Shown here piece after piece: positions 1-17,549 of a stretch of 64,000 nucleotides of DNA. The stretch is taken from contig NZ_CP115484.1 in the NCBI RefSeq assembly GCF_027627475.1, forward strand, positions 3,890,001-3,954,000. Direction: 5' to 3'. The notes beneath the pieces were generated by a model. That model had not been told where the DNA came from. It saw nothing but the letters and a program-made list of their open reading frames with translations, and made no database searches. This stretch comes from Paenibacillus sp. SYP-B4298. Lineage in GTDB: Bacteria; Bacillota; Bacilli; Paenibacillales; Paenibacillaceae. Every line of letters starts with the position of its first letter. Positions within the stretch are counted from its first letter, which is position 1. Both the position numbers and the translations under genes were made by a program.

Positions 1-292
1 CGAGCAGCGGCTTGCCGCTGCTGCACGCATAACGGAGCAGCCAGCGCTCGCTCTCCTCGCGCTCCGGGGAGTCTCCGCCATACTTGGACAGATCATTGCC
101 CCCGGTAATTAAGAAGCCACGGATCGTCAACTGGCTGAGTATCATCTTCACCGTTGGCAGATGGTTAGGCAGCAGCACAGGCATACAGCCGCAGGCTACC
201 AGCAGCTTGATCCACCGCTGATCGATCGCATCGCGCCGCTCCACTCGCTCACTCCAATCATCTACGCGCAACGTTACGCCAATCATGATCAT
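1..292 (-). CDS. class I glutamine amidotransferase-like hydrolase, partial (gamma-glutamyl-CDP-amidate hydrolase candidate)
   Basis: The 5' part of a gene that runs off the left edge; about 97 residues are visible. Translation starts at 292 (ATGA overlap with the stop of the upstream gene) or at the in-frame ATG at 286. The visible part has the peptidase C26/PuuD layout: MIGVTLR at the N-terminus, a PVLLPNH segment and ITGGNDLSKYGG, the loop that precedes the nucleophile region. The catalytic Cys lies beyond the window. Relatives remove gamma-linked glutamate; in Campylobacter Cj1417 hydrolyses gamma-glutamyl-CDP-amidate and acts with the glutamine kinase Cj1418. Because the gene is translationally coupled to a Cj1418-like gene, I favour this role over ordinary gamma-Glu-GABA hydrolysis. 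Family assignment is good; exact substrate is inference. Confidence 0.7.
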   Translation of the reverse strand, partial: MIMIGVTLRVDDWSERVERRDAIDQRWIKLLVACGCMPVLLPNHLPTVKMILSQLTIRGFLITGGNDLSKYGGDSPEREESERWLLRYACSSGKPLL

Positions 293-2622
293 CGAATAAT
301 CCTCATTTGCTTGCCTGCACAATCAATCGTGAGCAGCTCAGCCTGGCTGCATCGCTGGTACAGCACCTCACCCGCCCCGATTACAGCGGGAATCGACAGC
401 TCGCCTGCACGAATCGCCATATGCGAATTGGCGCCTCCATACATGGTGACGAAGCCCGCAATCCCGGTGGAGAATATCCAGTCATACCCTGGATCAGCGC
501 TTGGCAGCAGCAGGATACTTCCCTTGAAGCGGTCGCGCTCATCCTCCGGGAAGACGACTCGTCCGGTCGCCTCACGAAGCGTAATATAGTTCGGTTCACA
601 TTCGGGATAGCTGAAGCGCCATACATCAGCAGGCTTGGTAATTAGAGGCGGCAGTTCCAACTGCAATGTCGCCTTGTGCCGTCGCTTGCCCTCCTCGATG
701 CTGCTATGCAGCAGGCTGCGCAGATCCCCATCCGACTCATAGGCTCGCTTAATGACGAGTATGTTTGCATAAGCAGCCTCCTCCTTCGAGATGCCGTATT
801 CAGCCGCTACTTCCCCGAACAGACGCAGTGCCTCGCTCAAGCTTTTGGTGAACACGAATTTGGAGTATTCTCGCCCCTCAATCGCCGTCTTGAGAAAATC
901 GAACAGTTGCAGCACATCGCCGCCAAGCAAGCCGTGCTCCAGCAGCAGCGCCTGGATGCGCCGGTACTGCGCGAGAGACAGCGAGAAGGACGGCTTATCC
1001 GGCTTGTCACTGCTATTTTGCGACAGCTCGAACGCGAAATATTGCTCCGGAGCCTCATCATAGCGTGGTGAGCACAGCTCATAGGTGCCCGGACGAAGAT
1101 GCCCATATTTATCCAGAAATGATTGTTTATCCAATTCACTGTAGTCCTGGCTGATTCGCGAGCTGACCGTCTCCAGACTGCTCATATAGTGCTGATAGTC
1201 TGTATCAGAGAGAATATCGATCGCAACGAGCGAGCGCAGCAACTGCACCGCGATGAACCCTCCCCTGGCCAGCCCGGCAAATGGCAGCGTGCCGTAGCGC
1301 TTGCAATCCTCCAGCAGCCAGTAGATTTGGGATACCTTATCCAGCGAGCTGTCCATGATGATTGCCCGCCGAGCCTCCAGCTCATCGATCCGCTCCAGAT
1401 CGCTGCGCAGCAGACCATTGTTCGGACCAATGATGTGATTGGTCAGCTCCTTGAGGCATTGCGCCAACTGCTCCAGCTCGGCAGGGTCAAAGCCATGCTC
1501 CAGCAAGCCCGACAACTGCCGATCCAGGTCGAAGGTGAAGCAGGAGAAGATAATCTCGAACTCGACCTTATCATGATGCTTCGGATTGGCAATCAGACGC
1601 TCCATATAGTAATTGAGCAGCTTCTCGCTTAATGCCGCATCCAGCTCTCTCGGCAAAAAGGAATTAAAGCTGACACGCACATCAATGTACGGAACGCCCC
1701 CAAGATCGATTAGCAGCGGAAAGCTGCGTACATTCTGATACCCGTATCGGCTGCGCTGGTACGCCCATATACTGTCGGTTACCAGCTCCTTGTATAGTGA
1801 CAGCGCGAGCGGACGTGGGCGAACGCCGATAATCTCGGCCGGGTTCCAATCCGGCATGACACCGTACACCGTCTTGCTGCCGAACAGATACGGCTGCCGC
1901 TGCTGCCCCTGCTCCACCTTGTCATGAATGCGCTGGAGCAGCTCGGTCTGCTCCCTCATATCGGCCGGCTCGCAGACGGCTGCCAGCGGGCGGGCCTGGA
2001 ATAGATAGAGACGGCCAGCCGTATCGAATGCGAACTCAATATCGAGCCGTGAGGTCATCAGGATCGCCTCCAGCTCTCTGATCAGGGCAATCACTCTGTC
2101 CAGCGGCTCGGCCGGCGGCTCGGGAGAGCCTTTAAAGTAATAGTAGGTTTTCAGCCCCCCACCTGTCCCGGCCGTCACCGAATCGGAGGCTCCACTGCTG
2201 TCATCGTAATTAATGACGATGTAGTGTCCGCCGTTATTCGGGTTGGCGCTGAAGGCGACGCCGCTGGATGCGATATCCGCTAGCATCGGCTGGATGAATA
2301 CATGATGGAGCGCACCGTCCTGCTGGGGGTATGAGGCAATCACGCTATGGACTGCGAGGATGACCTCGCCCTCGCCATGCACATCCAGCACCGAATCATA
2401 TCGTCCAGCGAGCGAGGCCTCCGCCCCATCCTCACCGGCGGCGCTGCTGCGGACAATTAGCGGCTGCCCCGCCCAGGGCAGCTTCCGCAAGCGTTCCAAT
2501 ACGCCGGCCTGGTTCATGCGCCACTCTCCCACGGCAAATTGAAGCTGAGGAAGCACAATCGCCTCGGTTACCCGCTCCTTCAACCGCTCCAGCGTCTCCG
2601 ATTTCGTACCGAACACCATCAC
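289..2622 (-). CDS. PEP-synthase-related L-glutamine kinase-like enzyme
   Basis: A 777-residue protein with the domain order of PEP synthase/rifampin phosphotransferase relatives. The N-terminus FGTKSETLERL is followed by the ATP-grasp motif RSSAAGED (58-65), SGVAFSANP (120-128) and the DIEFAF...QARPL end of the nucleotide domain (194-213). A middle domain follows, then a C-terminal phosphohistidine domain, YGGANSHMAIRAGEL, with His734 as the likely phospho-acceptor. Length, N-terminal motif and His position fit Cj1418, which phosphorylates the amide of L-glutamine (ATP to AMP + Pi) in phosphoramidate synthesis; PhtL of the phaseolotoxin cluster is another relative. The gene overlaps both neighbours (TGA/GTGATG upstream, ATGA downstream), so it is translationally coupled. 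Start is GTG 2622 or ATG 2619 behind GGAGGGAG. A generic PEP/pyruvate-binding phosphotransferase remains possible. Confidence 0.75.
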   Translation of the reverse strand: MMVFGTKSETLERLKERVTEAIVLPQLQFAVGEWRMNQAGVLERLRKLPWAGQPLIVRSSAAGEDGAEASLAGRYDSVLDVHGEGEVILAVHSVIASYPQQDGALHHVFIQPMLADIASSGVAFSANPNNGGHYIVINYDDSSGASDSVTAGTGGGLKTYYYFKGSPEPPAEPLDRVIALIRELEAILMTSRLDIEFAFDTAGRLYLFQARPLAAVCEPADMREQTELLQRIHDKVEQGQQRQPYLFGSKTVYGVMPDWNPAEIIGVRPRPLALSLYKELVTDSIWAYQRSRYGYQNVRSFPLLIDLGGVPYIDVRVSFNSFLPRELDAALSEKLLNYYMERLIANPKHHDKVEFEIIFSCFTFDLDRQLSGLLEHGFDPAELEQLAQCLKELTNHIIGPNNGLLRSDLERIDELEARRAIIMDSSLDKVSQIYWLLEDCKRYGTLPFAGLARGGFIAVQLLRSLVAIDILSDTDYQHYMSSLETVSSRISQDYSELDKQSFLDKYGHLRPGTYELCSPRYDEAPEQYFAFELSQNSSDKPDKPSFSLSLAQYRRIQALLLEHGLLGGDVLQLFDFLKTAIEGREYSKFVFTKSLSEALRLFGEVAAEYGISKEEAAYANILVIKRAYESDGDLRSLLHSSIEEGKRRHKATLQLELPPLITKPADVWRFSYPECEPNYITLREATGRVVFPEDERDRFKGSILLLPSADPGYDWIFSTGIAGFVTMYGGANSHMAIRAGELSIPAVIGAGEVLYQRCSQAELLTIDCAGKQMRIIR

Positions 2623-5534
2623 GACACACTCCCTCCGCTCCCTTGCCTGGCTATGCCGGAGAGCAGCAGCGCCTTATATTCCACGCGCTCCGATTCCTCC
2701 ATTTGCCGCTCTGCTGCGAGCAATTTCATGCAGAGCCGGTAGATCACAGCCCGAACTGCTCCAGACTGTCCGGCCGCCGCCTCATATGCCTGCTCGAACC
2801 GGAAGGGCTCCTTCAACTGCTCCTCCAGCTCTGCATAGCCGCTGATCCCTTCGCTCTGGCTTCCTACTGCTCCGCCATGACGACTTGTCGCCGCCACGCT
2901 AGCGGCATCGGCTGCGCTGCCCGCCCCCTCCTCGCCTGCGCGCTCCGCCTCGACCTTCTGCTTCATGTCGCCAGGCTCGCAATCATAGCCCCAGGCCCGA
3001 TACTTGACCAGCAGCATGCGGGCCAGCCTGGACTTATCCAGAGGAGATAGCAGCTCGTCATAGGTTTTGGAGACCGTGCGGTCTGTGAACCCGGACAACA
3101 GCTCGGAGGTCAACGAATTCCACCATTTCATCCCGCCGAACGTGCTGCGCAGCAGGCTATCCTCCCACCTCATGCCCAGGTAGGCACAGAGCAGCCGCAG
3201 TGTAGCCTCAGGCTGCGCATGCACATCGTCCAGCCTGACCACATAGGTCTGCTCCGCCCATTCCGGCTTGGCAGGCACACCATGGAACAGCGATTGTAGT
3301 TGAAAGCACAGATTGTATAATGTCGCTTGCCCTGCCTTGAGCTGATAATTCAACGCTGAACCAAAGGCGATGACCGGATTGCGCACCATATACAGCAGCC
3401 TGGTCCAAGGGAATAGCGCAAGCAGACGTTCTGTATCCGCGATATTCGTCCCGAAATGGATGCCCCCCTCCACGATAAGCGGCAATTCTCCCGCCTCCGG
3501 CTTATAGCTTCCGCCCAGCGCAACGAATGCCGCCAGATGTACAGACTGATAGAACAGCTTCAGGTCCAGCTCTTCTGCTGTCTCTACAATCTCCATCCAT
3601 TCCTGCCGGAAGCGGACACGATCGATCGTAAAGAGCTGATCCCGCTCCTCGCCGAGCGCGCACATGCCATTCATGCGCGGCTCCTCCAGCACGCGCCCCT
3701 CATTGAACTCACCGGGGAAGGCAGCGAATATCGCCTCTACCAGCGCCTCCAAGTCCGGCCGCCCGTCAGCCATCCCTACCTGCTTCTGCCACAGCTTGAA
3801 CAGCTCCGGCCCGCTCAGCATGGTCACGATCACCTGGGGGTGTCCGTCCAGCAAGCTCTTGAGCAGGTGGGTGCCGCTTCGTCCATAGCAATAGATGCTG
3901 ACCACCTTGTTCAGCGATGCTGCATAGTCGCGCTTCGTCAGCCTCATGCTGCCGACCAGCCCGCGCAGCCGCTCGCATTCACGCGCCAGCATCGCCCCCG
4001 CTCCAGAGGAGGCTGCAAGCCGCTCCGCCCGCGCATACAGATCCAGCGCCTCCAGCAGCTTGCCCTGCTGCTCGCAGAGGGCGCCCAGCTCCTGCAGCAC
4101 GGACAGCTCCTCAGGCTCGCGAAGCAGGCGCCGCCGTAGCCGCTCCGCCTCCTTCTCCAGCAGATGCGGGTGGATTCGCAGCAGCTTGCCAGTCGATGTT
4201 CGCGGCAGTCGGGGGGTCCAGCAGAAGCGGCGCGGCAGCTTGTAGTCTGCCATCTGCTCCTGGCACCATGCCAGCAGCTCCGCCTCCTGCAGCCCCGCCT
4301 CCCGCTCGATATGAGCTTCAATTCGTTGATTGTCCTCAGAGAGACAGACCAGTACCTCACGCACCTGCGGATGCTGCTTCAGCCTGGCTTCTACCTCCTG
4401 CAGATTCACCTTCAGTCCGCCGATAATTTTGATGCTGTCCGACCGCCCCTGGACATGTACATAGCCATCGTGATCCACATAGCCGCTGTCTCCCATATTG
4501 AACCAGCCTTCATGCCAGCGCTCCTGCCCCGCAGGAGGCAGATACGGACTCTCCGGCAGCGCGGCCTGCAGCTCGCCCTGCTCGGCGCGAAGCTGAACGC
4601 CTGGAAGCGGACGGCCGACACTCTCCGGGCAACGCCCCTCCCAGTCCATCGTCAGCACCCCCGTCTCGCTCGTGCCATATTGCTGCCCGATCGATACACG
4701 GTATCGGCTGTAGAACGCCTGATGCGTCTCCAGCGATAGCGCCTCCCCTGCGGAGATGGCGTGCTTCAGATGCTCCAGCGGCGCGGCTGCTGGGGCTTGC
4801 GCCAGCAACTGGTAATGGAACGGAACACCGTACATGATCGTAATCCGTTCCTCGCGCAGCGTCTCCAGCAGGTGCGCGCTCTGATTATTCCTCGGGAAAT
4901 AAAGCGTTGCGCCAACGTATAACGTCTGCAACAGCCCATTCAGCAGGCCATAGGTATGCGTCAGCGGAGAGAGCGTCAGCACTCTGTCGCCAGGCTTCAT
5001 CAGCGGCTCGGCAGTCAGCTTGTACATGTCATGTATAATCGCCTCCCGCCTCCTGCCGATCGCCTTCGGCCTGCCCGTAGAGCCGGAGGTGAACAGGATG
5101 AGCGCATGATCCGGGTTATGGAGCCGCTCAGGAGTTGCCAGCTTCATCATCTCCACCTCTACCCGATCCTCAAATGCTGCCAGCGGATTCTGCCTGCCGA
5201 TCGACCGGATATAGTAATGGGGCTGATACTGCTGCAGCAGCGCTTCACTCTCCGCCTGCTTCAGCCTGCTGTCCAGCAGCATCACCTGCGCCCCCTGCCG
5301 CCAGACCGCGTACAGCAGTGTAATGAAGGTCAGCGAGCTTTTGACATGCAGCGCCACCAGATCACCGGCTTGAACGCCGGCATCTGACAGGCTGCACCGC
5401 TGCTCCTCAATCTCCTGCTCCAGCCGCGCATAAGTGACAGCAGATGCGCATTTCAGCGCCAAGTCATCTGGCGCCGCCGCATGGGCAAGGAGCATGTGCC
5501 CAAATGCTTGCCTATCGATTGAGTGTAACTGCAT
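2619..5534 (-). CDS. acyl/aryl-AMP ligase - sulfotransferase fusion protein
   Basis: About 971 residues; I start at ATG 5534 because GGAGGGGGAGG lies directly in front, rather than the longer frame from 5561. Residues 1-460 are an ANL adenylation enzyme: FTSGSTGRPK (about 148-157), QYGTSETG, FNMGDSGYVDHDGYVHV and the catalytic-Lys loop RTSTGKLLR. A helical, TPR-like linker follows (about 470-530). A sulfotransferase domain comes next, with the 5'-phosphosulfate loop YGRSGTHLLKSLL (about 550) and the 3'-phosphate motif YMVRNPVIAFGSALN (about 715). The last 120 residues contain an Ala/Gly/Ser-rich stretch and helices without a recognised fold. The ligase probably activates an acid for one of the two ACPs; the second domain would transfer sulfate from PAPS. 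It overlaps the KS-like gene upstream by 23 bases. The fusion is unusual; the acceptor is unknown. Confidence 0.82.
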   Translation of the reverse strand: MQLHSIDRQAFGHMLLAHAAAPDDLALKCASAVTYARLEQEIEEQRCSLSDAGVQAGDLVALHVKSSLTFITLLYAVWRQGAQVMLLDSRLKQAESEALLQQYQPHYYIRSIGRQNPLAAFEDRVEVEMMKLATPERLHNPDHALILFTSGSTGRPKAIGRRREAIIHDMYKLTAEPLMKPGDRVLTLSPLTHTYGLLNGLLQTLYVGATLYFPRNNQSAHLLETLREERITIMYGVPFHYQLLAQAPAAAPLEHLKHAISAGEALSLETHQAFYSRYRVSIGQQYGTSETGVLTMDWEGRCPESVGRPLPGVQLRAEQGELQAALPESPYLPPAGQERWHEGWFNMGDSGYVDHDGYVHVQGRSDSIKIIGGLKVNLQEVEARLKQHPQVREVLVCLSEDNQRIEAHIEREAGLQEAELLAWCQEQMADYKLPRRFCWTPRLPRTSTGKLLRIHPHLLEKEAERLRRRLLREPEELSVLQELGALCEQQGKLLEALDLYARAERLAASSGAGAMLARECERLRGLVGSMRLTKRDYAASLNKVVSIYCYGRSGTHLLKSLLDGHPQVIVTMLSGPELFKLWQKQVGMADGRPDLEALVEAIFAAFPGEFNEGRVLEEPRMNGMCALGEERDQLFTIDRVRFRQEWMEIVETAEELDLKLFYQSVHLAAFVALGGSYKPEAGELPLIVEGGIHFGTNIADTERLLALFPWTRLLYMVRNPVIAFGSALNYQLKAGQATLYNLCFQLQSLFHGVPAKPEWAEQTYVVRLDDVHAQPEATLRLLCAYLGMRWEDSLLRSTFGGMKWWNSLTSELLSGFTDRTVSKTYDELLSPLDKSRLARMLLVKYRAWGYDCEPGDMKQKVEAERAGEEGAGSAADAASVAATSRHGGAVGSQSEGISGYAELEEQLKEPFRFEQAYEAAAGQSGAVRAVIYRLCMKLLAAERQMEESERVEYKALLLSGIARQGSGGSVS

Positions 5535-6435
5535 AGCCTCCCCCTCCAAATCGATCATCATAGACCACAGCCGGCCCCGTCATCTCCCCTCGGCTCATTC
5601 GCTCTGCGGCGATGACCACCTCTGCCAGACCCTGATTGCCTGAGAGCGGACGCGCACGTCGAACACCATCGGTATTCTCCGACCGCCGCGATTCAATCTC
5701 GCTTATGCAGACCATGGCCATATCTCCGGAGCCATAGGCATCCACGCAGCTGTGCTCATCCTCTTGGTCGGCTGACCTATCCGGGGGCGCATCCACACTC
5801 GCGCTTCGCTCCAGCAGCAGCGAGACGGCGTGGTCGCAGGAGCGCATTGCTGCGGCATCCCCTGACAGCTCAGCCAGCAGCTCATCCGCTCGGGTCGAGT
5901 GCAGCTCTACGCCAATGACCAGCACCTGCCCGACATCTGGCAGCTCGCTATACAGCGTGGCAATCTCCAGCAACGCAGACAGCCCGTCCCCTTGGTGGGC
6001 AAGCGCCGTCATACGTCCGGTGAAGCCGAATTGTCTGGAAGCGTATCCCAGGATCGAATTGGGCACCGATTGGTAGAACAGCAGCGGATTATGAACCTGT
6101 CCTGCCAGCAGATTACGGCTGGCGCAGTCAGCCGTTGCCGTATCCCCCATCGCGCTTGCCAGGATGATGGCCAGCTTCTCGGGCTGGTGGATGTTCCCTG
6201 ATTCCAGATGCATCTGAATGATCCGGTAGACGAGCGGATTGAAGGTCGACTCGATGAAGCCCGGCACCGGAGCCAGCTCGGCTGTCAGCGGCAGCTCCAT
6301 GTCTGCCGACGTTGCGGCAGAGGCGGCCGATGCTTGCTGCGACCACGACTCGATGTAATTGGCCATCCCTTCTACTGTCTCTCCCCAGGGTCCTACACAA
6401 GTCGAAGCGATAACTCGCAGACATCCTCTGCTCAT
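5512..6435 (-). CDS. ketosynthase-like protein without active-site Cys (chain-length-factor-like)
   Basis: 307 residues starting behind an excellent ribosome site (GAGGAGGTGG). It resembles the N-terminal half of beta-ketoacyl synthases: MSRGCLRVIAS, then SAMGDTATADCAS, PLLFYQSVPNSILGYASRQF and VLVIGVELHS. Where a condensing enzyme has the nucleophilic Cys, the sequence reads TALAHQGDGLSALLE, with no Cys at the elbow, and the C-terminal HGTGT/His motifs are absent. This is the pattern of KS-like subunits of type II systems and aryl-polyene clusters, which shape the pocket of a partner KS and set chain length. It overlaps the active KS gene by 4 bases (ATGA), supporting a KS/CLF heterodimer. 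It could alternatively be a decarboxylase-like or purely structural subunit. Confidence 0.7.
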   Translation of the reverse strand: MSRGCLRVIASTCVGPWGETVEGMANYIESWSQQASAASAATSADMELPLTAELAPVPGFIESTFNPLVYRIIQMHLESGNIHQPEKLAIILASAMGDTATADCASRNLLAGQVHNPLLFYQSVPNSILGYASRQFGFTGRMTALAHQGDGLSALLEIATLYSELPDVGQVLVIGVELHSTRADELLAELSGDAAAMRSCDHAVSLLLERSASVDAPPDRSADQEDEHSCVDAYGSGDMAMVCISEIESRRSENTDGVRRARPLSGNQGLAEVVIAAERMSRGEMTGPAVVYDDRFGGGGYAVTLNR

Positions 6436-7733
6436 CTCGCCACCTCCTCGGGATGCTGAAGCACCAGCGCCGTATTATTGCCGCCGAACGAGGCATTGAG
6501 ATTGACCACTCGTCGCAGTCTGGCGCTTCGCGGCTCATTCGGGACATAATCCAGATCGCAGCTCTCATCCGGCTGCTCGAACCCGACAGTCGGCGGGAGG
6601 ATGCCCTCCTTCATCGCCAGCACCGACAGCGCGGTCTCCAGCGCTCCCGTGCCTTCGAGCAGATGGCCTGTCACCGTCTTCGTCGAGGAGACCGGGGTTC
6701 GATAAGCCGCCGCCCCCAGCGCCTGCTTGATGGCCGCCGTCTCGCTGCGGTCATTCAGCGGCGTACCTGTGCCATGCGCATGAATGTAATCGATCTGATC
6801 CGCAGGCAACCCGGATGCCTGCAGCGCGCGCTCGATCGCCAGCGCCATCCCCGCGCCGTGCGGATGCGGCTGACAGACATGGAAGGCGTCGCAGGACAGC
6901 CCCCATCCGACCAGCTCCGCATGGATCGTTGCTCCGCGGCGAACAGCTTGCTCCAGACTTTCCAGCATCAGCATGGCGCCGCCATCTCCGAGCAGCATGC
7001 CTGAACGGTTGGCAGAGAACGCCCGCACTCGGCCATCCTTGGCAAAGGCACGGCCCGAATCGAATTTGGCGAACATCTCCTCAGTGACGAGCGAATAACC
7101 GCCACATAGCACACTATTCGCCCTCCCCTGCCGAATCAGCTCATAGGCGACCCCGATCGCATTGCTTGAGGCGATACAGGCATTATTCAGGCACAGCCTT
7201 GTGCCCAGCGGGCTCATCCCGTAGCGCTCTGCTATCGTCTGCATATGAAACGCCGGCAGAAATTCCACGGCCGGGACAGCCGCTGGCGCCATGTGCTCGG
7301 ATTGCAATCGTTCAGGACGCCCGCCCTCTGGCTCTGCTCCCTCAGACTCGCTCTCCCAGGCTGCACTGCGGCTGCTGGAAGCCGCCGTGGCAGCTTGCCC
7401 AGCCGCCACCTGCGGAGTCCCCATGTCTATACGCTCGCGCCAGTAGTGCTGCAGGCCGTTATAATCGCCCTGTATGCCTAGCACCAGTGCTGAGCTCGAC
7501 AGATCGGCAAGCCCCGCCGAGGTCAGAGCATCGGCTGCCAGGCGCAGTCCCAGCTCCAGCAGGCTGCCCGTAAAGGCCGACTCGGCGGCTATCCCTGCCC
7601 GGAACGGCGAAGTATCGAAACGAGTGATCGGCCGGAACTGATGCACGCCTGCCAGCACGCTGCTCCGCGCCGCCTCCGCGCCGAAGCCGCTGGGCACCAT
7701 CATCCCGATACCCGAAATAACGACGCGATTCAT
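6432..7733 (-). CDS. beta-ketoacyl-ACP synthase (FabF-like, type II)
   Basis: 433-residue condensing enzyme with intact catalysis: NNACIASSNAIG (nucleophile Cys186), HAHGTGTPLND (His320), SSTKTVTGHLLEGTGA (Lys352, His357) and a C-terminal NASFGGNN. It would catalyse decarboxylative Claisen condensation between an acyl or aroyl primer and malonyl-ACP. An Ala/Ser/Glu-rich insertion around residues 109-150 is not typical of FabF and lies on the surface by analogy. Position between an ACP gene and a Cys-less KS-like gene, overlapping both by 4 bases, argues for a specialised KS/CLF pair rather than housekeeping fatty acid synthesis. No ketoreductase or dehydratase gene is seen in the window. Confidence 0.88.
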   Translation of the reverse strand: MNRVVISGIGMMVPSGFGAEAARSSVLAGVHQFRPITRFDTSPFRAGIAAESAFTGSLLELGLRLAADALTSAGLADLSSSALVLGIQGDYNGLQHYWRERIDMGTPQVAAGQAATAASSSRSAAWESESEGAEPEGGRPERLQSEHMAPAAVPAVEFLPAFHMQTIAERYGMSPLGTRLCLNNACIASSNAIGVAYELIRQGRANSVLCGGYSLVTEEMFAKFDSGRAFAKDGRVRAFSANRSGMLLGDGGAMLMLESLEQAVRRGATIHAELVGWGLSCDAFHVCQPHPHGAGMALAIERALQASGLPADQIDYIHAHGTGTPLNDRSETAAIKQALGAAAYRTPVSSTKTVTGHLLEGTGALETALSVLAMKEGILPPTVGFEQPDESCDLDYVPNEPRSARLRRVVNLNASFGGNNTALVLQHPEEVAR

Positions 7734-8023
7734 GCCTTTTCACTCCTCTCTCCCGAGCCGCCGGTTATACCGCATGTGGTGGCGGCACGTTCCGAAATAA
7801 GCTGCTGGATGGACTGGATGGAATCAAATCGCTCATAGTCCTGCTCCTCCAGCTCCAGACGCAACTGCAGGCGCTGCTCCAGCTTCTCCAGAAACCAGAG
7901 CAGAGACAGCGAATCCATCACGATGCGCGAATCATAGCGAAGCTCCTCAGATAGCGCAACATACAACTGATTTTCCAACAGCAGTTGCCGAATTTCCTCC
8001 AGCGTAATCAGCGGCTCCTTCAT
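7730..8023 (-). CDS. acyl carrier protein (second of two)
   Basis: 97 residues, small and acidic at its core. The phosphopantetheine attachment motif is MDSLSLLWFLEKLE, with Ser38 as the expected modified residue; the preceding helix and the following LEEQDYERFDSIQSIQQLI match the four-helix ACP fold. The C-terminal 20 residues after the fold are irregular and basic. It overlaps the KS gene by 4 bases and the other ACP gene by 4 bases, so the two carriers and the KS are coupled. Two discrete carriers suggest separate roles, for example one holding the starter and one the extender; this is inference. Confidence 0.82.
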   Translation of the reverse strand: MKEPLITLEEIRQLLLENQLYVALSEELRYDSRIVMDSLSLLWFLEKLEQRLQLRLELEEQDYERFDSIQSIQQLISERAATTCGITGGSGERSEKA

Positions 8024-8283
8024 ACCGCATTGGCCCGCGCCTGCAGGGTGGTCAACAGCTCGCCTACCGTATACCCCCCCACATCCAGCAGCTCGCTGTC
8101 CGACAGCTTCACCCCTAGCTGCGCTTCAATACGAGCAGCCAGCTCGATAATCTGGATCGAATCCAGCGCCAGTCCCGCCTCCCCCAGCGGCAGCTCCTCT
8201 TCGATCGCCTGTGGATCGATAGGGAGATTCATATGACCTGTAATCATCTGAACAATAGCCTCATAGATATGTTCTCTCGTCAT
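8020..8283 (-). CDS. acyl carrier protein (first of two)
   Basis: 87 residues with a clear carrier-protein fold. The attachment motif is LALDSIQIIELAARIE with Ser42. The helix-2 signature and a C-terminal GGYTVGELLTTLQARA helix are typical of ACPs of type II polyketide or specialised fatty-acid systems. The stop codon of the preceding chorismate-lyase-like gene abuts the start codon, and the 3' end overlaps the next ACP gene. It probably carries the substrate loaded by the adenylation domain or the growing chain. Confidence 0.85.
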   Translation of the reverse strand: MTREHIYEAIVQMITGHMNLPIDPQAIEEELPLGEAGLALDSIQIIELAARIEAQLGVKLSDSELLDVGGYTVGELLTTLQARANAV

Positions 8284-8829
8284 TTATACCAACTCTCCTT
8301 CCTTTACAGTGAATTGCAGTGCCGATTCCATCGTCCTTCTCAGCATATCCGGGTTAAAATATTCGAGAATATGCGCCCCGCATTGCTCATAAGGCGGGAA
8401 TATCAGCTTGTACTCCTTGAACGGTATCCAGCCAGCCTCCTCAAAGCTCAGTTGATACGGCTGACCGAAGAGATCAACAATCTCCTCTGCCCGCCGCCAG
8501 CCGTTGCGAACCATCTGCCGCTGATCGCTTGTGCCGCTTGCACGCAGGACGTGGCCGATGCCTTCTCCCTCATGCACGATTCGCTCCAGCAGCGCAAGCG
8601 GCACGTAATTCGGGTTGATCCTTACGATGTTTTGTGACACATAGCGCTGATCCTTCTCCGTCATGAGGAAGGACTCACGCCATATTTCCCCTCCGGCCAA
8701 TTCCGATTGACCCGCCACGATAGGCCGAAGCCGATCCATGACGATCATCTCCAGCAGATCGGTTGTACGGCTATTCGAGGTGACGAGCAGTTGAAATATG
8801 ATCCATTCCAAGCGATTGGTGTCGCCCAA
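8284..8829 (-). CDS. chorismate lyase-like protein (UbiC/DUF98 type)
   Basis: The longest frame starts at 8907, but a perfect Shine-Dalgarno (AAAGGAGGTGA) lies inside it, 7 bases before an in-frame TTG at 8829, giving 181 residues. That length fits the chorismate pyruvate-lyase fold. Visible matches are WRESFLMTEKDQRYVSQNI, IVRINPNYVPLALLERI, EGIGHVLR (compare PLGRYL in UbiC) and a late acidic residue in HILEYFNPD. Such enzymes convert chorismate to a hydroxybenzoate plus pyruvate. As first gene of the cluster it would make the aromatic primer for the adenylation domain and KS. Similarity is by eye and moderate; a DUF98 protein of other function is possible. Confidence 0.58.
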   Translation of the reverse strand: MGDTNRLEWIIFQLLVTSNSRTTDLLEMIVMDRLRPIVAGQSELAGGEIWRESFLMTEKDQRYVSQNIVRINPNYVPLALLERIVHEGEGIGHVLRASGTSDQRQMVRNGWRRAEEIVDLFGQPYQLSFEEAGWIPFKEYKLIFPPYEQCGAHILEYFNPDMLRRTMESALQFTVKEGELV

Positions 8830-8996
8830 TGGGTATTCACCTCCTTTCATCAGCAGTACAGGGAAGCGGGGCAGCCTAAAATAACAAAAATCACATAATG
8901 TATCCACTTTTTAATTTTTTATTGTAGGGAGCAGCAGAACATGGTATTTTTTAGAAAACGGTATCATCACCTTGAATTTCATAGGAGCGATCGAAC
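8830..8996. promoter_or_regulatory. divergent promoter region of the biosynthetic cluster and the MFS gene
   Basis: An AT-rich stretch between two divergent genes. It contains runs of A/T around 8910-8930 and the ribosome-binding site AGGAG just before the plus-strand ATG at 8997. I see no convincing operator or paired -35/-10 boxes, so only the regional role is called. Confidence 0.45.
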
Positions 8997-10271
8997 ATGA
9001 TGCACAAGCTCAAGCAACTGATGTCGGCATCCGACTTTTTTGGCAACAAATTTATCCGCGTCATACTGCTGTCCAGTCTGTTCCTGCAGACCGGCGTCTG
9101 GGTGCGCAACTTCGCCGTGCTCCTATTCGTCATGGAGATGACGAACAACGATACGATGGCTGTATCGCTGCTGTACGTTGCCGAATATGCTCCGATCTTC
9201 ATCTTCTCCGTCATCGGCGGAACGTTCGCGGACCGCTGGCGGCCGAAGCGGACGATGATCTGGTGCGACATCCTCAGCGCTCTATCGCTGCTAGCGATTC
9301 TAGCTGCTCTGACAGCCGGTTCATGGCAGGCTGTCTTCTTCACAACGCTGCTGTCCGCCATCCTATCCCAATTCTCGCAGCCCTCAGGAATGAAGCTGTT
9401 CAAGCAGCATGTACCCGAGGAGCATATACAGACCGGTATGGCGATGTATCAGACGCTGATCAGCACCTTCATGATCATCGGCCCGGTCATCGGAACCTTC
9501 GTATACAGCGCATACGGCATCCAGATCTCATTAGGTCTGGTGGCAGTCGCCTTCATCCTGTCCGCTGTCACGCTCGTTATGCTGCCAACAGACAAACCAC
9601 GCAGCGCTGCCACAGCGCAAGAGCCCTTCTGGATCGAGCTGCGCGGCGGCTTTCGCTATGTGCTGCAGCATCCGGTGCTGCGCCTGCTGGGCATTGCCTT
9701 CGGACTCGGCGGGCTCGCTGTAGGCATCATCCAGCCGCTGAGCATCTTCATCGTCGTGAAGCAGCTCTCATTAGACAAGGAATACTACCAATGGTTCGCC
9801 AGCACGAACGTTGTCGCCACCGTAGCCGGGGGCCTGCTCGTCGTCGGCATCTCCAAGCGGGTATCCTCTCAGAAGATCCTCGCTATCGGCAATATCGTGA
9901 GCGCCTTCTCTGTCATCGGTATCGGCATATCCACCTATCTGTACCTATCCTTGCTGATGCAGTTCATCCGTGGGTTTGTCCTGCCCTTCATTCAAGTCGG
10001 GATTAATTCGATCGTCATGAAGACGACGCATGAATCCTATGTGGGCAGAGTCAATGGCGCGTTCGGCCCTGTGTTTATGGGGTCGATGGTACTGATGACG
10101 ATGCTCTCCGGCTGGCTCAGCTCCTACGTGCCGCTGGCGGTTATGTTTGTCATCTCCGGCCTGATGTTTATTATCTCGACGGTCGTCATCTCGCTGATGT
10201 TCCGGCTGACGCTCGCCGTCAGTGGGACTTCGAGCGACAGCACGGTTGGCGCCGATTCCAAAGCCATGTAA
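8997..10271 (+). CDS. MFS transporter, probable exporter
   Basis: 424 residues with about 12 hydrophobic segments and the MFS loop between helices 2 and 3, GGTFADRWRPKRTMIW (the GxxxDRxGRR-like motif). The fold resembles the MFS_3/enterobactin-exporter-like group (EntS, macrolide exporters), with a basic N-terminus MMHKLKQL and the second half beginning near residue 220. Start ATG 8997 follows AGGAG. It is transcribed away from the phosphoramidate/sulfotransferase-type cluster, and the natural inference is export of that product and self-resistance. It is also about 9 kb from the metallophore genes, so service to that pathway (as S. aureus CntE, also MFS) cannot be excluded. Confidence 0.82.
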   Translation: MMHKLKQLMSASDFFGNKFIRVILLSSLFLQTGVWVRNFAVLLFVMEMTNNDTMAVSLLYVAEYAPIFIFSVIGGTFADRWRPKRTMIWCDILSALSLLAILAALTAGSWQAVFFTTLLSAILSQFSQPSGMKLFKQHVPEEHIQTGMAMYQTLISTFMIIGPVIGTFVYSAYGIQISLGLVAVAFILSAVTLVMLPTDKPRSAATAQEPFWIELRGGFRYVLQHPVLRLLGIAFGLGGLAVGIIQPLSIFIVVKQLSLDKEYYQWFASTNVVATVAGGLLVVGISKRVSSQKILAIGNIVSAFSVIGIGISTYLYLSLLMQFIRGFVLPFIQVGINSIVMKTTHESYVGRVNGAFGPVFMGSMVLMTMLSGWLSSYVPLAVMFVISGLMFIISTVVISLMFRLTLAVSGTSSDSTVGADSKAM

Positions 10272-10422: not shown

Positions 10423-10463
10423 AAAAAAAGCCCTGCCACCGATTTCAGGCTCGGTAGCAGGGC
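10423..10463 (-). terminator. rho-independent terminator of the metallophore operon
   Basis: Reading the minus strand, a GCCCTGC(T)ACCGA stem with one internal mismatch, an 8-base loop and its complement is followed by seven Ts. It sits about 70 bases past the methyltransferase stop and closes the operon that begins near 19684. It could also stop plus-strand transcription from the MFS gene. Confidence 0.85.
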
Positions 10464-12150: not shown

Positions 12151-12930
12151 CTACAGAGCCGCCGCGATCAGAAGCCGGGTATACGGATGACGCTTCTCGC
12201 CCCATAGCTCGCCGCGGGCGAATTCGTCCACGATCTTGCCTTCATACATGACCATAATTCGGTCGCACAGTTGCCCCACCGCTGCCAAATCATGAGAAAT
12301 AAATACAATCGACAGCCCAAGTCTCATTTGCAGCTCGCTCAAGAGCTGCATAATCTGACTCTGGGACGCGGCATCAAGACTGGAGGTCGGCTCATCACAG
12401 ACGAGAAGCTGCGGTGACAGACTGATTGCGCGAGCAATACAGACGCGCTGACGCTGACCGCCGCTCAGCTCATGCGGATAGCGATTCATGTACGAGCTAT
12501 CCAGCCCAACCATGTGCAGCAGCTTCTCTGCTCTAGCTCTGCGGGGAAGCACAGCCCCTTGCCATAACTCCGGCTGCACACTCTTGAAGTTATCCAGCGG
12601 CTCGATAACAGATCGCCATATCGGCAGCCGCTCGTTCAACGAAGCGGTCGGATCTTGAAATACCACCTGCACATGCTGCCGCAGGCGGCGCAGCTCGCGT
12701 TGACTTGCACAGGTTAAGGACTGTCCCAGCAGCAGCACCTCGCCTTCATCAGGCTGCTCCAGTCCAAGCAGCAGCCGGGCGAGAGTGCTCTTGCCGCTGC
12801 CGCTCTCTCCAACGATGCCGACACATTCGCAACTGCCCACAACCAGCGAGACTCCGTCTACTGCCGCTGTCTGCAAGCCGCCCCTCCGATAGTGCTTCAC
12901 AAGACCTTCAGCGCGCAGAAGCTCATTCAC
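12151..12930 (-). CDS. cntF: Opp/Nik-type ABC transporter ATPase (CntF-like)
   Basis: 260 residues from a GTG start at 12930, chosen because AGGAGG lies 7 bases upstream; the longer frame to 13071 lacks support. Walker A GESGSGKSTLARLL, signature LSGGQRQRVCIARA, Walker B LLVCDEPTSSLD and the switch His in VFISHDLAAV are intact. The C-terminal HPYTRLLIAA is the oligopeptide/nickel-type ending. It pairs with the ATPase domain of the overlapping upstream gene to energise import of the metal-metallophore complex. The 8-base overlap with that gene implies translational coupling. Confidence 0.85.
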   Translation of the reverse strand: MNELLRAEGLVKHYRRGGLQTAAVDGVSLVVGSCECVGIVGESGSGKSTLARLLLGLEQPDEGEVLLLGQSLTCASQRELRRLRQHVQVVFQDPTASLNERLPIWRSVIEPLDNFKSVQPELWQGAVLPRRARAEKLLHMVGLDSSYMNRYPHELSGGQRQRVCIARAISLSPQLLVCDEPTSSLDAASQSQIMQLLSELQMRLGLSIVFISHDLAAVGQLCDRIMVMYEGKIVDEFARGELWGEKRHPYTRLLIAAAL

Positions 12931-14860
12931 CAGCAGCCCTCCTCTTCTGCCTGTCATGCTTCGCCTGAGCTGTCTCGCCTTCATCGACCAACGATGCGGG
13001 TGGCGACTCTGATGATGGCTCTGATAATGGCTCCAGTCGCTGCAGCCGAGGACTGGCAGCCAACAATTCACGGGTATACGGATGTTCAGGCCGGGCCCTT
13101 ATCGTCTCTGCATTGCCCATCTCCACTATCGTTCCCCCGCGCATTATAGCCATTCGATCGGCACGTCGCCAGACCTGACGCAGATCATGGGTAATGAATA
13201 ACACTGCACAGCCCACCTCGCGCTGCAGCTCGCTGATCAGATCCATCATCTGCTCGCTCGTCACAACATCCAGCGCGGTGGTGGGCTCATCGGCGATCAG
13301 CAATGTCGGCCGTGGCAGCAGCGCCGCAGCCAGCGCAACCCGCTGACGCTGGCCGCCGCTAAGCTGGAAGGAATAGCTGCTATAGACACGCTCCGGCGGC
13401 AGGCCGACGCGCGCCAGCCATTGCAGCACCAACTGACGCGCCTCCTCGCGTGTGAGAGCCAGATGGATCTGCGCCACCTCCCTCAATTGCGAGCCCAGCT
13501 TCCGATAGGGTGTGAAGCTGCCCTGATAATCCTGGAATACCCAGCCGATCTTGCTGCCCCGCAGTTGCTTGCGCTCTTTGGCGGACAGCTCCAGCAGCCG
13601 CTGTCCGTCAAAGCAGATTTCGCCGTCACACTGCATATGCCCAGACAAGAGCCCGCCGATCGCCGCTGCTGTCATGCTCTTGCCGCTACCGCTCTCCCCT
13701 ACAAGCGCCAGCATCTCCCCTGCTCGAATTGAAAAAGATACATATTGTATTATAACTTTAATCCCTGAACGATTCTGCGTTTCAATGCACAGTCCCTCCA
13801 CACGCAGCAGCTCTGTTTCCCTGTTATCTGGCTCCGCACCCGCCTGCCCGCTTGCACCTGAATGAACCTGTTCTGGGGGGAGCGGCAATGTGCTTGCTTC
13901 CTGCCCTGCCTTGAGCTCTCGGCGAGGTCTGCCTCTACGCGCGGATAGCAACCGCGACAAGCTGTCTGCTGTCCTTGCGCTTGCCCTTCTCCCCTCAGCC
14001 GATCTCCTCGGGTTGCCCTGCAGGCTCCCGCTTCTAACATCCAGCCTATCGCGCAGTCCATCGCTTAACAGGTTGCAAGCGAGCACCACCAGCAGGATGG
14101 CCATTCCGGGGTACAGCATCATCTGTGGCTCAGATTGGAAGTAAGCACGGCCGTCATTGAGCATCGCTCCCCATTCCGGTGCTGGCGGCTGCGCACCCAG
14201 ACCCAGATAAGACAGCGCAGAGATTAACAGAATCATTCGACCCATATCTCCCGCCGCTACGATAGCTAGCGGTGCGCCCGCATGCCGCAGCAGATGACGG
14301 CGAATCACCGTCCAGCCAGTGCTGCCAGCCGCGATGGAGGCGATCACATATTCCTTCTCTCGCTCGGATTGGATAACTCCACGGATTAATCGGGCATAAC
14401 CAATCCACTTCACACAGGCGATTGCCAGCAGCACATTCGGCAAGCCTGGACCGAGAAATCCGGCCACAGCAACCGCTATCAGAAATTCTGGCAATGCGCC
14501 TGCACCATCCGCCAGTCGCATCAGCACGGTATCTAGCCTCCCACCCGCATAGCCTGCCAGCAGTCCGATCGGGATGCCTATCGCGACAACAATGACGATA
14601 ACCGCGGCTGCAAGCCCTAACGTCAGAGGCATTCCACCTAGCAGCCGGGACAGAATGCAGCGCCCTAGATGGTCGGTGCCAAGCGGATAATCCATGCTGG
14701 GCGGACGCAGGCGCTCTCCCATCTGGATGAGCAGCGGATCATGGGGAGCCAGCAGCGGCCCGACGATAGCCAGCAGCAGGAACAGCAGCAGCAATACACC
14801 GCCAGTCGAGACCAGCGGAGCAAGCCACAACTGCCTGATGCCGCAGTTCATCCTTCTCAT
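12923..14860 (-). CDS. ABC transporter permease-ATPase fusion (CntC-CntD)
   Basis: A single 645-residue frame. Residues 1-270 are an OppC/NikC-type permease: an N-terminal membrane anchor, PLGTDHLGRCILSRL, and the EAA-like loop EKEYVIASIAAGSTGW. A basic, low-complexity linker (about 275-350) follows, then a complete ATPase: Walker A GESGSGKSMTAAAIGG, LSGGQRQRVALAAAL, LLIADEPTTALD, VLFITHDL and the Opp-type HPYTRELLAASP end. Staphylococcal cntC and cntD are separate genes; here they are joined, so the importer has four genes for five functions. It overlaps the next permease gene by 4 bases. A gene fusion is more likely than a sequencing error because the linker reads through cleanly. Confidence 0.85.
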   Translation of the reverse strand: MRRMNCGIRQLWLAPLVSTGGVLLLLFLLLAIVGPLLAPHDPLLIQMGERLRPPSMDYPLGTDHLGRCILSRLLGGMPLTLGLAAAVIVIVVAIGIPIGLLAGYAGGRLDTVLMRLADGAGALPEFLIAVAVAGFLGPGLPNVLLAIACVKWIGYARLIRGVIQSEREKEYVIASIAAGSTGWTVIRRHLLRHAGAPLAIVAAGDMGRMILLISALSYLGLGAQPPAPEWGAMLNDGRAYFQSEPQMMLYPGMAILLVVLACNLLSDGLRDRLDVRSGSLQGNPRRSAEGRRASARTADSLSRLLSARRGRPRRELKAGQEASTLPLPPEQVHSGASGQAGAEPDNRETELLRVEGLCIETQNRSGIKVIIQYVSFSIRAGEMLALVGESGSGKSMTAAAIGGLLSGHMQCDGEICFDGQRLLELSAKERKQLRGSKIGWVFQDYQGSFTPYRKLGSQLREVAQIHLALTREEARQLVLQWLARVGLPPERVYSSYSFQLSGGQRQRVALAAALLPRPTLLIADEPTTALDVVTSEQMMDLISELQREVGCAVLFITHDLRQVWRRADRMAIMRGGTIVEMGNAETIRARPEHPYTRELLAASPRLQRLEPLSEPSSESPPASLVDEGETAQAKHDRQKRRAAGE

Positions 14861-15807
14861 GTGCGTCCTCCTTCCTGTCCCCGAAGGCGTATACGTGGAT
14901 CAAGAACGGCAAGCCCTAGCTCTGATACCCAGTTCGCCAGCAGGAAGCAGGCGCCGCTGAGTAATACATAGCCCTGAATAACCGGATAGTCTCGTACACG
15001 GATCGCTTCAATCGCCAGACTACCCAGTCCGGGCCAGCCATACAGGGATTCCGTCACGACCGAGCCTGCCATGAGCGCACCCATACTGATCCCCGAGATG
15101 GCGATGATCGGAATCAGAGCTGCCCGCAGCGTATAACGCAGCAGGATTCGCCAGCTTGGAACCCCTCTGGCTTGCGCTGCGCGGATATATTCCTGAGACA
15201 TCGTATCCAGCAGGCCGGCACGCAGCAGCCGGATATATTCTGGCGCCATGACAACACCGAGCGTTACCGATGGCAGCACCAGATAACGCAAGCCTCCGCT
15301 GCCCATCGCTGGCAGCCAGTTCAGTTGATAGGCGAACAGATAGACCAGCAGCAAGGCCAGCCAGAAGCTCGGGATAGAAGCACCGAGCAGCGCAAAGCCG
15401 CGGCTGAACACGTCAGGCGCCTTCCCCTTATATACAGCAGAGAGCAGACCCAGAGGGAGCGAGATGGCGATCAGAACAATAAGTGCGCCAAGCGTCAGCC
15501 AGAGCGTCGCTGGCAGCCGCTCCATCAGGAGAGTCCATACGTCCCGATTGTTCGTCATCGAGCGTCCCCAGTCCAATTGCGCCATCTTGCCCAGCCAATT
15601 CGCATATTGCTCATAGAGAGGCAGAGTCAATCCCCATTCCTCGCGTACCGCCTGCTGATCCGCCAGTGTGAGGGCCCCATCTCCTATCTGTAACATAGTT
15701 AGCACCGGATCGCCTGGTGCCAGCTTCATGAGTACAAAGGTCACCATACTGAGAATGACCAGCACAACAACAAGCTGTACAAGCTTTGCGGCTAACTGTC
15801 GCAGCAT
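14857..15807 (-). CDS. cntB: Opp/Nik-type ABC transporter permease (CntB-like)
   Basis: 316 residues with the OppB/NikB pattern: an N-terminal helix, LAPGDPVLTMLQIGDG, a cluster of five helices and the EAA-like loop RAAQARGVPSWRILLRYTLR. The conserved ending LANWVSELGLAVLDPRIRLR is typical of dipeptide/nickel permeases. The start codon follows the stop of the binding-protein gene directly (TAGATG), so the two are co-translated. It forms the membrane channel with the permease half of the fused protein encoded next. Confidence 0.86.
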   Translation of the reverse strand: MLRQLAAKLVQLVVVLVILSMVTFVLMKLAPGDPVLTMLQIGDGALTLADQQAVREEWGLTLPLYEQYANWLGKMAQLDWGRSMTNNRDVWTLLMERLPATLWLTLGALIVLIAISLPLGLLSAVYKGKAPDVFSRGFALLGASIPSFWLALLLVYLFAYQLNWLPAMGSGGLRYLVLPSVTLGVVMAPEYIRLLRAGLLDTMSQEYIRAAQARGVPSWRILLRYTLRAALIPIIAISGISMGALMAGSVVTESLYGWPGLGSLAIEAIRVRDYPVIQGYVLLSGACFLLANWVSELGLAVLDPRIRLRGQEGGRT

Positions 15808-17442
15808 CTAGTCCACATCCAGCTTGTTCGTTACAATATAGAATTCCTCTGCACCAGGCCGCCAGTTTGTGACACGCTTATTCATACCGACCAGAATATT
15901 CGGATGAATCAGATACGAATGAGGTCTATACTCGTTGTTCGTCTTCACAGCCTCGCGCGTCAGCTTGATCCGCTCCTCCATATCCCCAATGCCATTCAGT
16001 TCCTTCACAATCGGCTCCAGACCCGGCACCTCGATGTTAGCCGAGTTGTATGAGCCACCGGGGAGGTAGGTCGAATTCAGGAAGGAGCCGCTGTCCCCTC
16101 TCGGCGCAGTCAGGTAACTTGCCGTCGATATATCCCAGTCGCTCGTCTCCTTGATGTAGGTCTCTGGATACTCCACGGAGACGATCTCAATGGTTATGCC
16201 CGCCTTGGTCGCCTCTGATTGGACCAGTAGTGGCATCAGCGGGAGCTCCGGATTAATGCCAGTAAAGGCGATCAGCTTAAGCTTCAGCGGCTTGCCGTTC
16301 TTCTCCAGCTTGCCGCCAGCCCCCTTCATATACCCGGCGCTCTCCAGCAGAGCCAGCGCTCCAGCCTGATCCAGTTGCTGCGGCTCCTCCACGCTGCCAA
16401 ACGGCAGCTTGGGGCTGAACGGGCCACTAGCCGCCAGCGCATGTCCCTGCATAATATCGCGCACGATGGCCTCGCGGTCGATCAGCTTATCCAGCGCCTG
16501 ACGCACCCGAAGATCCTGCACCTGGTCGCTAAGCGGATTATACGTGAAATAATGGGTGCGCAGGCTGGTAACAGACTGCACCTCCAACTGCTCATCCTGC
16601 CCGATCGCCTGGAGCGCTTCTGGAGCAAGATGATAGACGATATCCGCCTGCTTAGATTGAAATGCCAGTGTGCGAACATTGGCGTCGGAATTGAACTGGA
16701 ATTTGACCTCGCTTATAGGAGCTGGCTCATCCCAATACTGTTCGTTGCGAACCAGATTCAGCTCTTTGCCGGGGGTGAAGCCCGTAACCTTGAACGCCCC
16801 TGTTCCGACAGGCGCCATGTTGAATGCATCCTTGCCCATGGCCTGCTCTGCAGCCACGCTCATCAGACTTGCTGTCGGATGCACCAGCTCATTGGGAAAG
16901 GCCGGATGCGGCTCTGTCGTGGTGAAGATCAGCTCCTGCCCATTGGCCTCGATCGAGGCCAGCTTCAACGCAGCCTCAAGCGACTTACTATCAACGATCC
17001 CTCTAGCAAAAGATGCCTTGGCTGCATCTGCGTCCAGCTTCGTTCCATCGGAGAAGCTTACATCGTCACGCAACGTAAAGACCCAGGTTAGCTCGTCTCT
17101 GGCTTCCCACTTACTAGCCAGCCATGGCACGATCTTCATGTTCTCGTCCAGCTTGACCAGCGTCTCGGTAACGCCAGCGCGCAGCGCAATCCATCCATTA
17201 TGCGGATCCAGCGTATCCACGGGCAGACTATGAATAATGGTCAGTGACTTCTGCTTGTCTGTGGGCTGCTTATCGGGTGTTGCGCTTCCAGCTCCATTTC
17301 CTTCACCTGCTGTCCGGGACGCTGTATTCGCATCCCCTGTGCCCGCATTGCCCGAGCAAGCACTCAAGCATAATACCATCGCAAGCAGGATGAGCCAGCT
17401 TGCCTTGCGCTTTCCGTGAGCTTGTTTTCGAATCCGCTTCAT
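15808..17442 (-). CDS. cntA: metallophore/nickel-type substrate-binding lipoprotein (CntA-like)
   Basis: About 544 residues, an SBP family 5 (OppA/NikA) protein. The basic N-terminus and hydrophobic stretch LLAMVLCLSACSG form a lipobox with acylated Cys, so the protein is membrane-anchored outside the cell. Family signatures include TETLVKLDENMKIVPWLA, LRDDVSFSDGTKLDADA, VGTGAFKVTGFTPGKELNLVRNEQYWDE and RVRQALDKLIDREAIV. Of two nearby ATGs I prefer 17442 because AAGGGG lies 11 bases upstream; 17451 would be only 2 bases away. Immediately downstream of the opine dehydrogenase gene, it should capture the metal-loaded opine metallophore. A nickel or peptide ligand is the alternative. Confidence 0.85.
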   Translation of the reverse strand: MKRIRKQAHGKRKASWLILLAMVLCLSACSGNAGTGDANTASRTAGEGNGAGSATPDKQPTDKQKSLTIIHSLPVDTLDPHNGWIALRAGVTETLVKLDENMKIVPWLASKWEARDELTWVFTLRDDVSFSDGTKLDADAAKASFARGIVDSKSLEAALKLASIEANGQELIFTTTEPHPAFPNELVHPTASLMSVAAEQAMGKDAFNMAPVGTGAFKVTGFTPGKELNLVRNEQYWDEPAPISEVKFQFNSDANVRTLAFQSKQADIVYHLAPEALQAIGQDEQLEVQSVTSLRTHYFTYNPLSDQVQDLRVRQALDKLIDREAIVRDIMQGHALAASGPFSPKLPFGSVEEPQQLDQAGALALLESAGYMKGAGGKLEKNGKPLKLKLIAFTGINPELPLMPLLVQSEATKAGITIEIVSVEYPETYIKETSDWDISTASYLTAPRGDSGSFLNSTYLPGGSYNSANIEVPGLEPIVKELNGIGDMEERIKLTREAVKTNNEYRPHSYLIHPNILVGMNKRVTNWRPGAEEFYIVTNKLDVD

Positions 17443-17549
17443 TTGCGCCATATCCCCTTTTCACATCATACGATCTTATGGTTCACAACTATATGAACTC
17501 ACGTCACATTGTAATACTCAGTGAACGGGTTCCTTATGACTCATAAGAG

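Follow-up and report, generated by a model that had tools for sequence, protein, structure and literature searches.

The 64,000-nucleotide stretch of Paenibacillus sp. SYP-B4298 DNA analysed here (NZ_CP115484.1, positions 3,890,001–3,954,000, from a 6.26 Mb genome in a single contig; "the window" below) begins inside a biosynthetic gene cluster. We consider it probable that this cluster comprises a 12-gene operon, an AraC regulator and a divergent MFS exporter, and that its product is an aryl polyketide that carries a phosphoramidate group. Sequence to the left of the window is numbered as L002, in which window base 1 is L002:18001; the left cluster edge, L002:13717, lies 4284 bases further left, and about 4.3 kb more of the cluster therefore lies outside the window. 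Every gene named in a preliminary description of the window was present at its place in the list of open reading frames (ORFs) and in the Pfam results, apart from the lyase-like protein, which has no Pfam match. By ORF coordinates, no gap between adjacent genes from the lyase-like gene through the AraC gene exceeds 20 bases, and some of these neighbours overlap. The features are:

8997–10271, + strand, MFS exporter, divergent (Pfam MFS_1, 1.2e-34)
8284–8907, − strand, chorismate-lyase-like protein (zero Pfam hits)
8020–8283, − strand, acyl carrier protein 1 (ACP1; Pfam PP-binding, 4.4e-8)
7730–8023, − strand, ACP2 (weak PP-binding, Pfam E 0.1; 46–72% identity in six other cluster loci)
6432–7733, − strand, ketosynthase (KS; Pfam ketoacyl-synt N/C)
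5512–6435, − strand, Cys-less KS partner, chain-length-factor-like (CLF; Pfam Ketoacyl-synt_2, 8.4e-6)
2619–5561, − strand, fusion of an adenylation domain (about residues 1–470) and a sulfotransferase-fold (ST) domain (about residues 535–865)
289–2622, − strand, glutamine kinase, Cj1418 type (NCBIfam NF004508)
L002:17672–18322, − strand, gamma-glutamyl-CDP-amidate hydrolase-like protein (best match NF045546; crosses window base 1, in-window part 2–322)
L002:16921–17685, − strand, S-adenosylmethionine (SAM) methyltransferase, left of window base 1
L002:16178–16909, − strand, cytidylyltransferase-type protein (MobA-like nucleotidyltransferase; Pfam NTP_transf_3, 7.1e-18)
L002:15102–16157, − strand, BtrH-like protein (BtrH_N, 25.4 bits; Pfam cut-off 29.7)
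L002:14587–15105, − strand, divergent APS kinase (APSK; APS kinase family)
L002:13717–14577, − strand, AraC regulator

This gene order is identical in 7 of 394 genomes of the family (the window genome, L030, L031 and L110–L113), and because it recurs in seven genomes the cluster is more than a chance association. The L031 copy is truncated at the lyase-like gene by a contig end, and in L111–L113 the lyase-like protein and ACP1 are a single fused protein. An AraC match lies beside the operon in L030 and L111–L113, and an MFS homologue 70–86% identical to that of the window occupies the same divergent position in five other cluster loci (L030 and L110–L113). Among the 394 genomes the KS is present in eight (E ≤ 1e-90), of which seven hold the cluster and the eighth, G060, lacks the kinase, and the NF004508 kinase is present in 12 (E ≤ 1e-100), with 11 above the family cut-off.

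Predicted phosphoramidate supply genes

The kinase scores 920 bits with NCBIfam NF004508 (PRK05849; cut-off 501), which we take to be the family that holds Cj1418, versus 72 bits with PEP synthase and 47 bits with rifamycin phosphotransferase. In a tree of 36 cassette kinases (part of those obtainable) and seven PPDK-type proteins from genomes of the same genus, the seven cluster kinases form one clade (100/99) within the cassette kinases, which come from many phyla, and the seven other PPDK-type proteins lie across one branch; bootstrap values in this tree are unsettled and two of its outgroup branches are very long. The family scores and the tree, which is without Cj1418 and PhtL, argue against placing the kinase with PEP synthase or rifampin phosphotransferase, the grouping that the preliminary description had named as fatal to its proposal. 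The position of the His motif makes His734 the candidate phosphohistidine, and presumably this motif has the role that it plays in the PPDK family. At L117:7943–10337 (genome G029) the glutamine kinase is split over two overlapping ORFs and the gene looks broken or frameshifted.

The preliminary description had likened the kinase and its overlapping neighbour to Cj1418 and Cj1417; the kinase half of that pairing is well supported by sequence, and for the other half the best family is gamma-glutamyl-CDP-amidate hydrolase (NF045546; the next family scores 46 bits), at a score of 109 bits that is below the cut-off of 250. It had also suggested a search left of base 1 and had named a genome without any cytidylyltransferase as a second refutation; directly left of base 1 the operon encodes both a protein of cytidylyltransferase type and one of APS kinase type, which speaks against that refutation. 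Taken by family, the kinase, cytidylyltransferase-type, hydrolase-like and APSK proteins match the Cj1415–Cj1418 set, which makes CDP-phosphoramidate 3′-phosphate.

These partners were then counted in a cross-phylum set of cassette loci, consisting of the best 80 of 256 kinase relatives with one genome per species scanned. Near the kinase at those 80 loci, tblastn (E < 1e-10) finds the hydrolase at 73, the methyltransferase at 68, the cytidylyltransferase at 71 and the APSK at 66. Fifty-nine of the loci have 5 kb on both sides; hydrolase, cytidylyltransferase and APSK are all present in 49 of these, 48 of which have the methyltransferase as well. KS and CLF are found only in the two Paenibacillus loci of the 80, L030 and L031. 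Two points count against a straightforward reading of these data, the sub-cut-off score of the hydrolase and the fact that the methyltransferase tallies may include non-orthologues. The former would also fit a kinase relative that acts on some other amide or carboxylate and so leads to a different activated phosphorus group, for example an N-phosphoryl amide that would stay in the product; since the partner families and the methyltransferase stay together across many phyla, we find this highly improbable. The sequence comparisons thus leave the predicted phosphoramidate core of the cluster well supported.

A phosphoramidate made here might instead decorate a surface polysaccharide, with the KS/CLF genes serving a separate purpose. 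The Campylobacter set serves the capsule, according to the cited passages of PMC3907429 and PMC11800397, and a cassette locus on an Azospirillum plasmid is surrounded by sugar genes. Against this stand the lack of glycosyltransferase or capsule genes among the operon genes, the overlapping reading frames and the order common to seven genomes, the fusion of the ST domain to an adenylation domain, and a divergent exporter of the MFS type, which is not a polymer exporter. We consider such a role very unlikely, and an aryl polyketide as the recipient of the phosphoramidate is preferred.

The cassette was also met in other settings. On the Vibrio alfacsensis plasmid NZ_CP140104.1 (L145), kinase, hydrolase and cytidylyltransferase-type genes adjoin cysND and a gene annotated as a CDP-glycerol glycerophosphotransferase family member, and this locus possibly uses another type of transferase for the same donor. 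The sole match in a phage search with the kinase was MT837632.1:673–2988 (99% coverage, 34.5% identity), in a 9.5 kb "Bacteriophage sp." record that comes from human faeces and carries no annotation. Nine genes near the cassette that were scanned for other natural-product contexts (five in Actinoallomurus L103, four in P. putida L083) included four without a Pfam match and no clear scaffold gene.

The sulfotransferase-fold domain and its predicted donor

The C-terminal part of the adenylation fusion has the fold of sulfotransferases that use 3′-phosphoadenosine 5′-phosphosulfate (PAPS). In a profile search (E ≤ 1e-10, at most four candidates per genome scored) this ST family was found in 9 of the 394 genomes, and in every one of them it lies no more than 1.6 kb from a glutamine kinase; this co-occurrence, like the gene set, its conservation and the family assignments, was seen directly. 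Among cassette loci the family is present at 43 of 89 in a first pass, or at 36 of 82 when seven seed loci (one a duplicate) are removed. Because the domain tracks the glutamine kinase and its predicted donor, 3′-phospho-CDP-phosphoramidate, is a PAPS look-alike, the domain is probably a phosphoramidate transferase and not a sulfotransferase.

The cluster APSK bears on the same question. The genome holds a second APS kinase match elsewhere, CysC, which scores 230.5 bits versus 122.2 for the cluster protein. The cluster APSK shares 33% identity with CysC of its own genome and 54% with the median-score cassette APSK, the lowest cassette value being about 35% (60 relatives, cluster relatives included). 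Twelve residues, including Q76, T84, F88, W94, N95 and Y102, are kept in more than 90% of 61 cassette APSKs, and CysC differs there.

If the domain were an ordinary PAPS sulfotransferase supplied by the cluster APSK, the product would be sulfated as well as, or instead of, phosphoramidated. Ordinary PAPS sulfotransferases have this same fold, and NCBIfam NF004041, an adenylyl-sulfate kinase subfamily, fits the cluster APSK with 180 bits (cut-off 127). On the other side, a strong CysC exists apart from the cluster, the cluster APSK is nearer to cassette APSKs than to CysC, ST profile matches in the 394 genomes lie only beside a glutamine kinase, and no ATP sulfurylase was found among the operon genes. 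We regard sulfation as unlikely, and the sulfate-bearing product foreseen in the preliminary description is probably wrong. A further reservation about the phosphoramidate transferase assignment is that the ST family is present at only about half of the cassette loci, and other transferases must therefore exist. We give about even chances to a broader proposal, that the ST-fold family beside the cassette in several phyla is a class of transferases using 3′-phospho-CDP-phosphoramidate as a PAPS analogue, which in Paenibacillaceae became joined to a domain that loads aryl acids, to make polyketide-type aryl O-methyl phosphoramidates. We know of no such compound class.

The probable aryl-polyketide core and its proposed starter unit

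The KS active site Cys-His-His is kept in all eight aligned homologues and the active-site Cys of the CLF-like partner is absent in all eight, which bears out the KS with a Cys-less partner of the preliminary description. Judged by these residues, the cluster contains a type II KS/CLF system with a predicted active KS, a Cys-less partner and an ACP. No ketoreductase, dehydratase or thioesterase was found among the operon genes by Pfam, and PDB searches with the adenylation domain (at a strict limit of 1e-35) and the CLF (at 0.1) gave no matches.

The lyase-like protein, whose start codon is not firmly placed (in several relatives the protein starts at about residue 27), is the candidate source of the starter. 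A seven-member profile of its family searched against the PDB up to E 5 gave two hits, the second of which, 2nwi (E 2.4), is collinear over profile positions 12–107; the 2nwi fragment matches PF01947, the Rv2949c-like chorismate pyruvate-lyase family, at 3.1e-26. Several results weigh against a lyase: hmmscan gives no Pfam chorismate-lyase match (PF04345, PF01947), the top PDB hit of the profile is an unrelated protein, comparison of the profile with UbiC, with six or seven rows, is not significant, and a structure model from two sequences (predicted local distance difference test score 35.5) was unusable and set aside. PF01947 gave one weak, sub-cut-off match in 101 genomes of the class (L137, in a region that looks flagellar by eye) and none in a set of 12 genomes, and the lyase-like protein had no match in plasmids. 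Weak matches of the profile within the phylum (G694, G643) were set aside; by eye, the G694 match lies on the strand opposite a GAPDH-like ORF.

The genome with the KS and without the kinase, G060, carries a sister cluster (L136) with homologues of KS (47%), CLF (34%), ACP2 (38%) and the adenylation domain (42%), a PabAB-type aminodeoxychorismate synthase above the TIGR00553 cut-off, and two BtrH_N-type proteins, one above its cut-off (34.7 bits) and one weak (E 0.0098). The lyase-like protein, ST domain and kinase have no match in this stretch, and a chorismate-to-aminobenzoate enzyme seems to replace the lyase-like gene there. Since this sister KS/CLF cluster has an aminodeoxychorismate synthase and lacks a lyase-like gene, a para-substituted benzoate starter is supported. 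L136 (G060:C9:50000–69900) also has two adenylation enzymes and, by eye, sugar genes, and its probable product is an aminobenzoyl polyketide with sugars. In another Bacilli genome, G427 (L150:9496–16694), a lyase-like homologue (33%) is clustered with a fused two-KS protein, an ACP, a reductase, a FabA-like dehydratase, an acyltransferase, AcpS and a glycine-cleavage T-like protein (FabA and T-protein by Pfam, the remainder by tblastn or by eye). The apparent swap for PabAB in the sister cluster, the lyase-like cluster of G427 and the faint resemblance to proteins of the Rv2949c-like fold together make a para-hydroxybenzoate starter likely. A chorismate-lyase-like role, as in the preliminary description, is plausible from weak similarity and context, with 4-hydroxybenzoate as the proposed product.

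Predicted pathway, surroundings and known systems

We infer the reactions and the product from these genes as follows. The chorismate-lyase-like protein would form 4-hydroxybenzoate, which the adenylation domain would load onto an ACP. Malonyl-ACP taken from fatty-acid synthesis would serve KS/CLF for chain extension. Glutamine kinase, cytidylyltransferase, hydrolase and the APS-kinase-like enzyme would convert glutamine, ATP and CTP to 3′-phospho-CDP-phosphoramidate. From this PAPS look-alike the ST domain, fused to the loading enzyme, would move phosphoramidate to one of the hydroxyls on the acyl chain while this is bound to its carrier; the phenol is the simplest candidate. The SAM methyltransferase would give the O-methyl phosphoramidate. 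The BtrH-like protein, which has an invariant Cys in seven homologues, could release the acyl group by passing it to an amine or alcohol acceptor, and the MFS protein would export the product; this release step is weakened by the protein's sub-cut-off Pfam score and by its having no match in the G060 sister cluster at E ≤ 0.01. The most likely product would be a polyketide of hydroxybenzoyl type, in amide or ester form, that bears an O-methyl phosphoramidate.

A terminator-like hairpin at 10463–10430 (− strand), 3′ of a neighbouring methyltransferase gene, may mark the right cluster boundary; three such sites were found versus 1.3 expected, a weak excess. Promoter scans gave site counts within about one standard deviation above shuffles. 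Adjoining the cluster at window 12151–17451 is an oligopeptide-type ABC importer operon with a solute-binding protein, permeases, ATPases and one permease–ATPase fusion (named by eye).

Natural products with a phosphorus–nitrogen (P–N) bond are rare. The preliminary description knew of no described pathway with this gene set, and our literature search, judged from titles and the starts of abstracts of the papers listed, found none. PMC8708908, the one listed paper that contains both "methyl phosphoramidate" and "sulfotransferase", was dismissed as a prior description; both terms occur only in its reference list. A conserved cluster tying Cj1415–1418 chemistry to an aryl polyketide would let genome mining reach a new compound class, an ST-fold transferase would account for the PAPS-like 3′-phosphate of the donor, and the widely conserved methyltransferase is a pointer to the methylation step.

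In the cited passages that chemistry is described for Campylobacter capsules: those of PMC11800397 give the pathway role of Cj1415–1418, report that deletion of Cj1421/Cj1422 causes loss of O-methyl phosphoramidate (MeOPN), and report no functional assignment for Cj1419 and Cj1420. Those of PMC3907429 note that MeOPN resembles some synthetic pesticides, cite previous work that reported insecticidal activity, and state that biosynthesis mutants kill fewer larvae, that transferase mutants are as active as wild type, and that MeOPN compounds are inactive. No bioactivity is assumed for the cluster product.

The C. jejuni MeOPN system (Cj1415–Cj1418) and the present cluster share glutamine kinase, cytidylyltransferase-type, CDP-amidate-hydrolase-like and APS-kinase-like proteins with a methyltransferase nearby, a likeness of families and not of compared Campylobacter sequences; in place of capsule sugar genes the operon here holds KS/CLF, ACP, adenylation and BtrH-like genes. 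Aryl polyene and other type II KS–CLF clusters resemble it in having a KS with a Cys-less partner, two ACPs and an acid-loading enzyme, and differ in that this operon is without ketoreductase, dehydratase and thioesterase. As with phaseolotoxin and other P–N natural products, a P–N bond is expected in the product; the scaffold genes differ from those of phaseolotoxin, and the likeness of the kinase to PhtL is that of the preliminary description, not of a sequence comparison. The BtrH-like protein shares a BtrH_N-like N-terminus and an invariant Cys with the butirosin acyltransferase BtrH, and differs in falling under the Pfam cut-off. Finally, the ST domain is about 15–20% identical to curacin-type and tyrosylprotein sulfotransferases, and its context favours a phosphoramidate donor.

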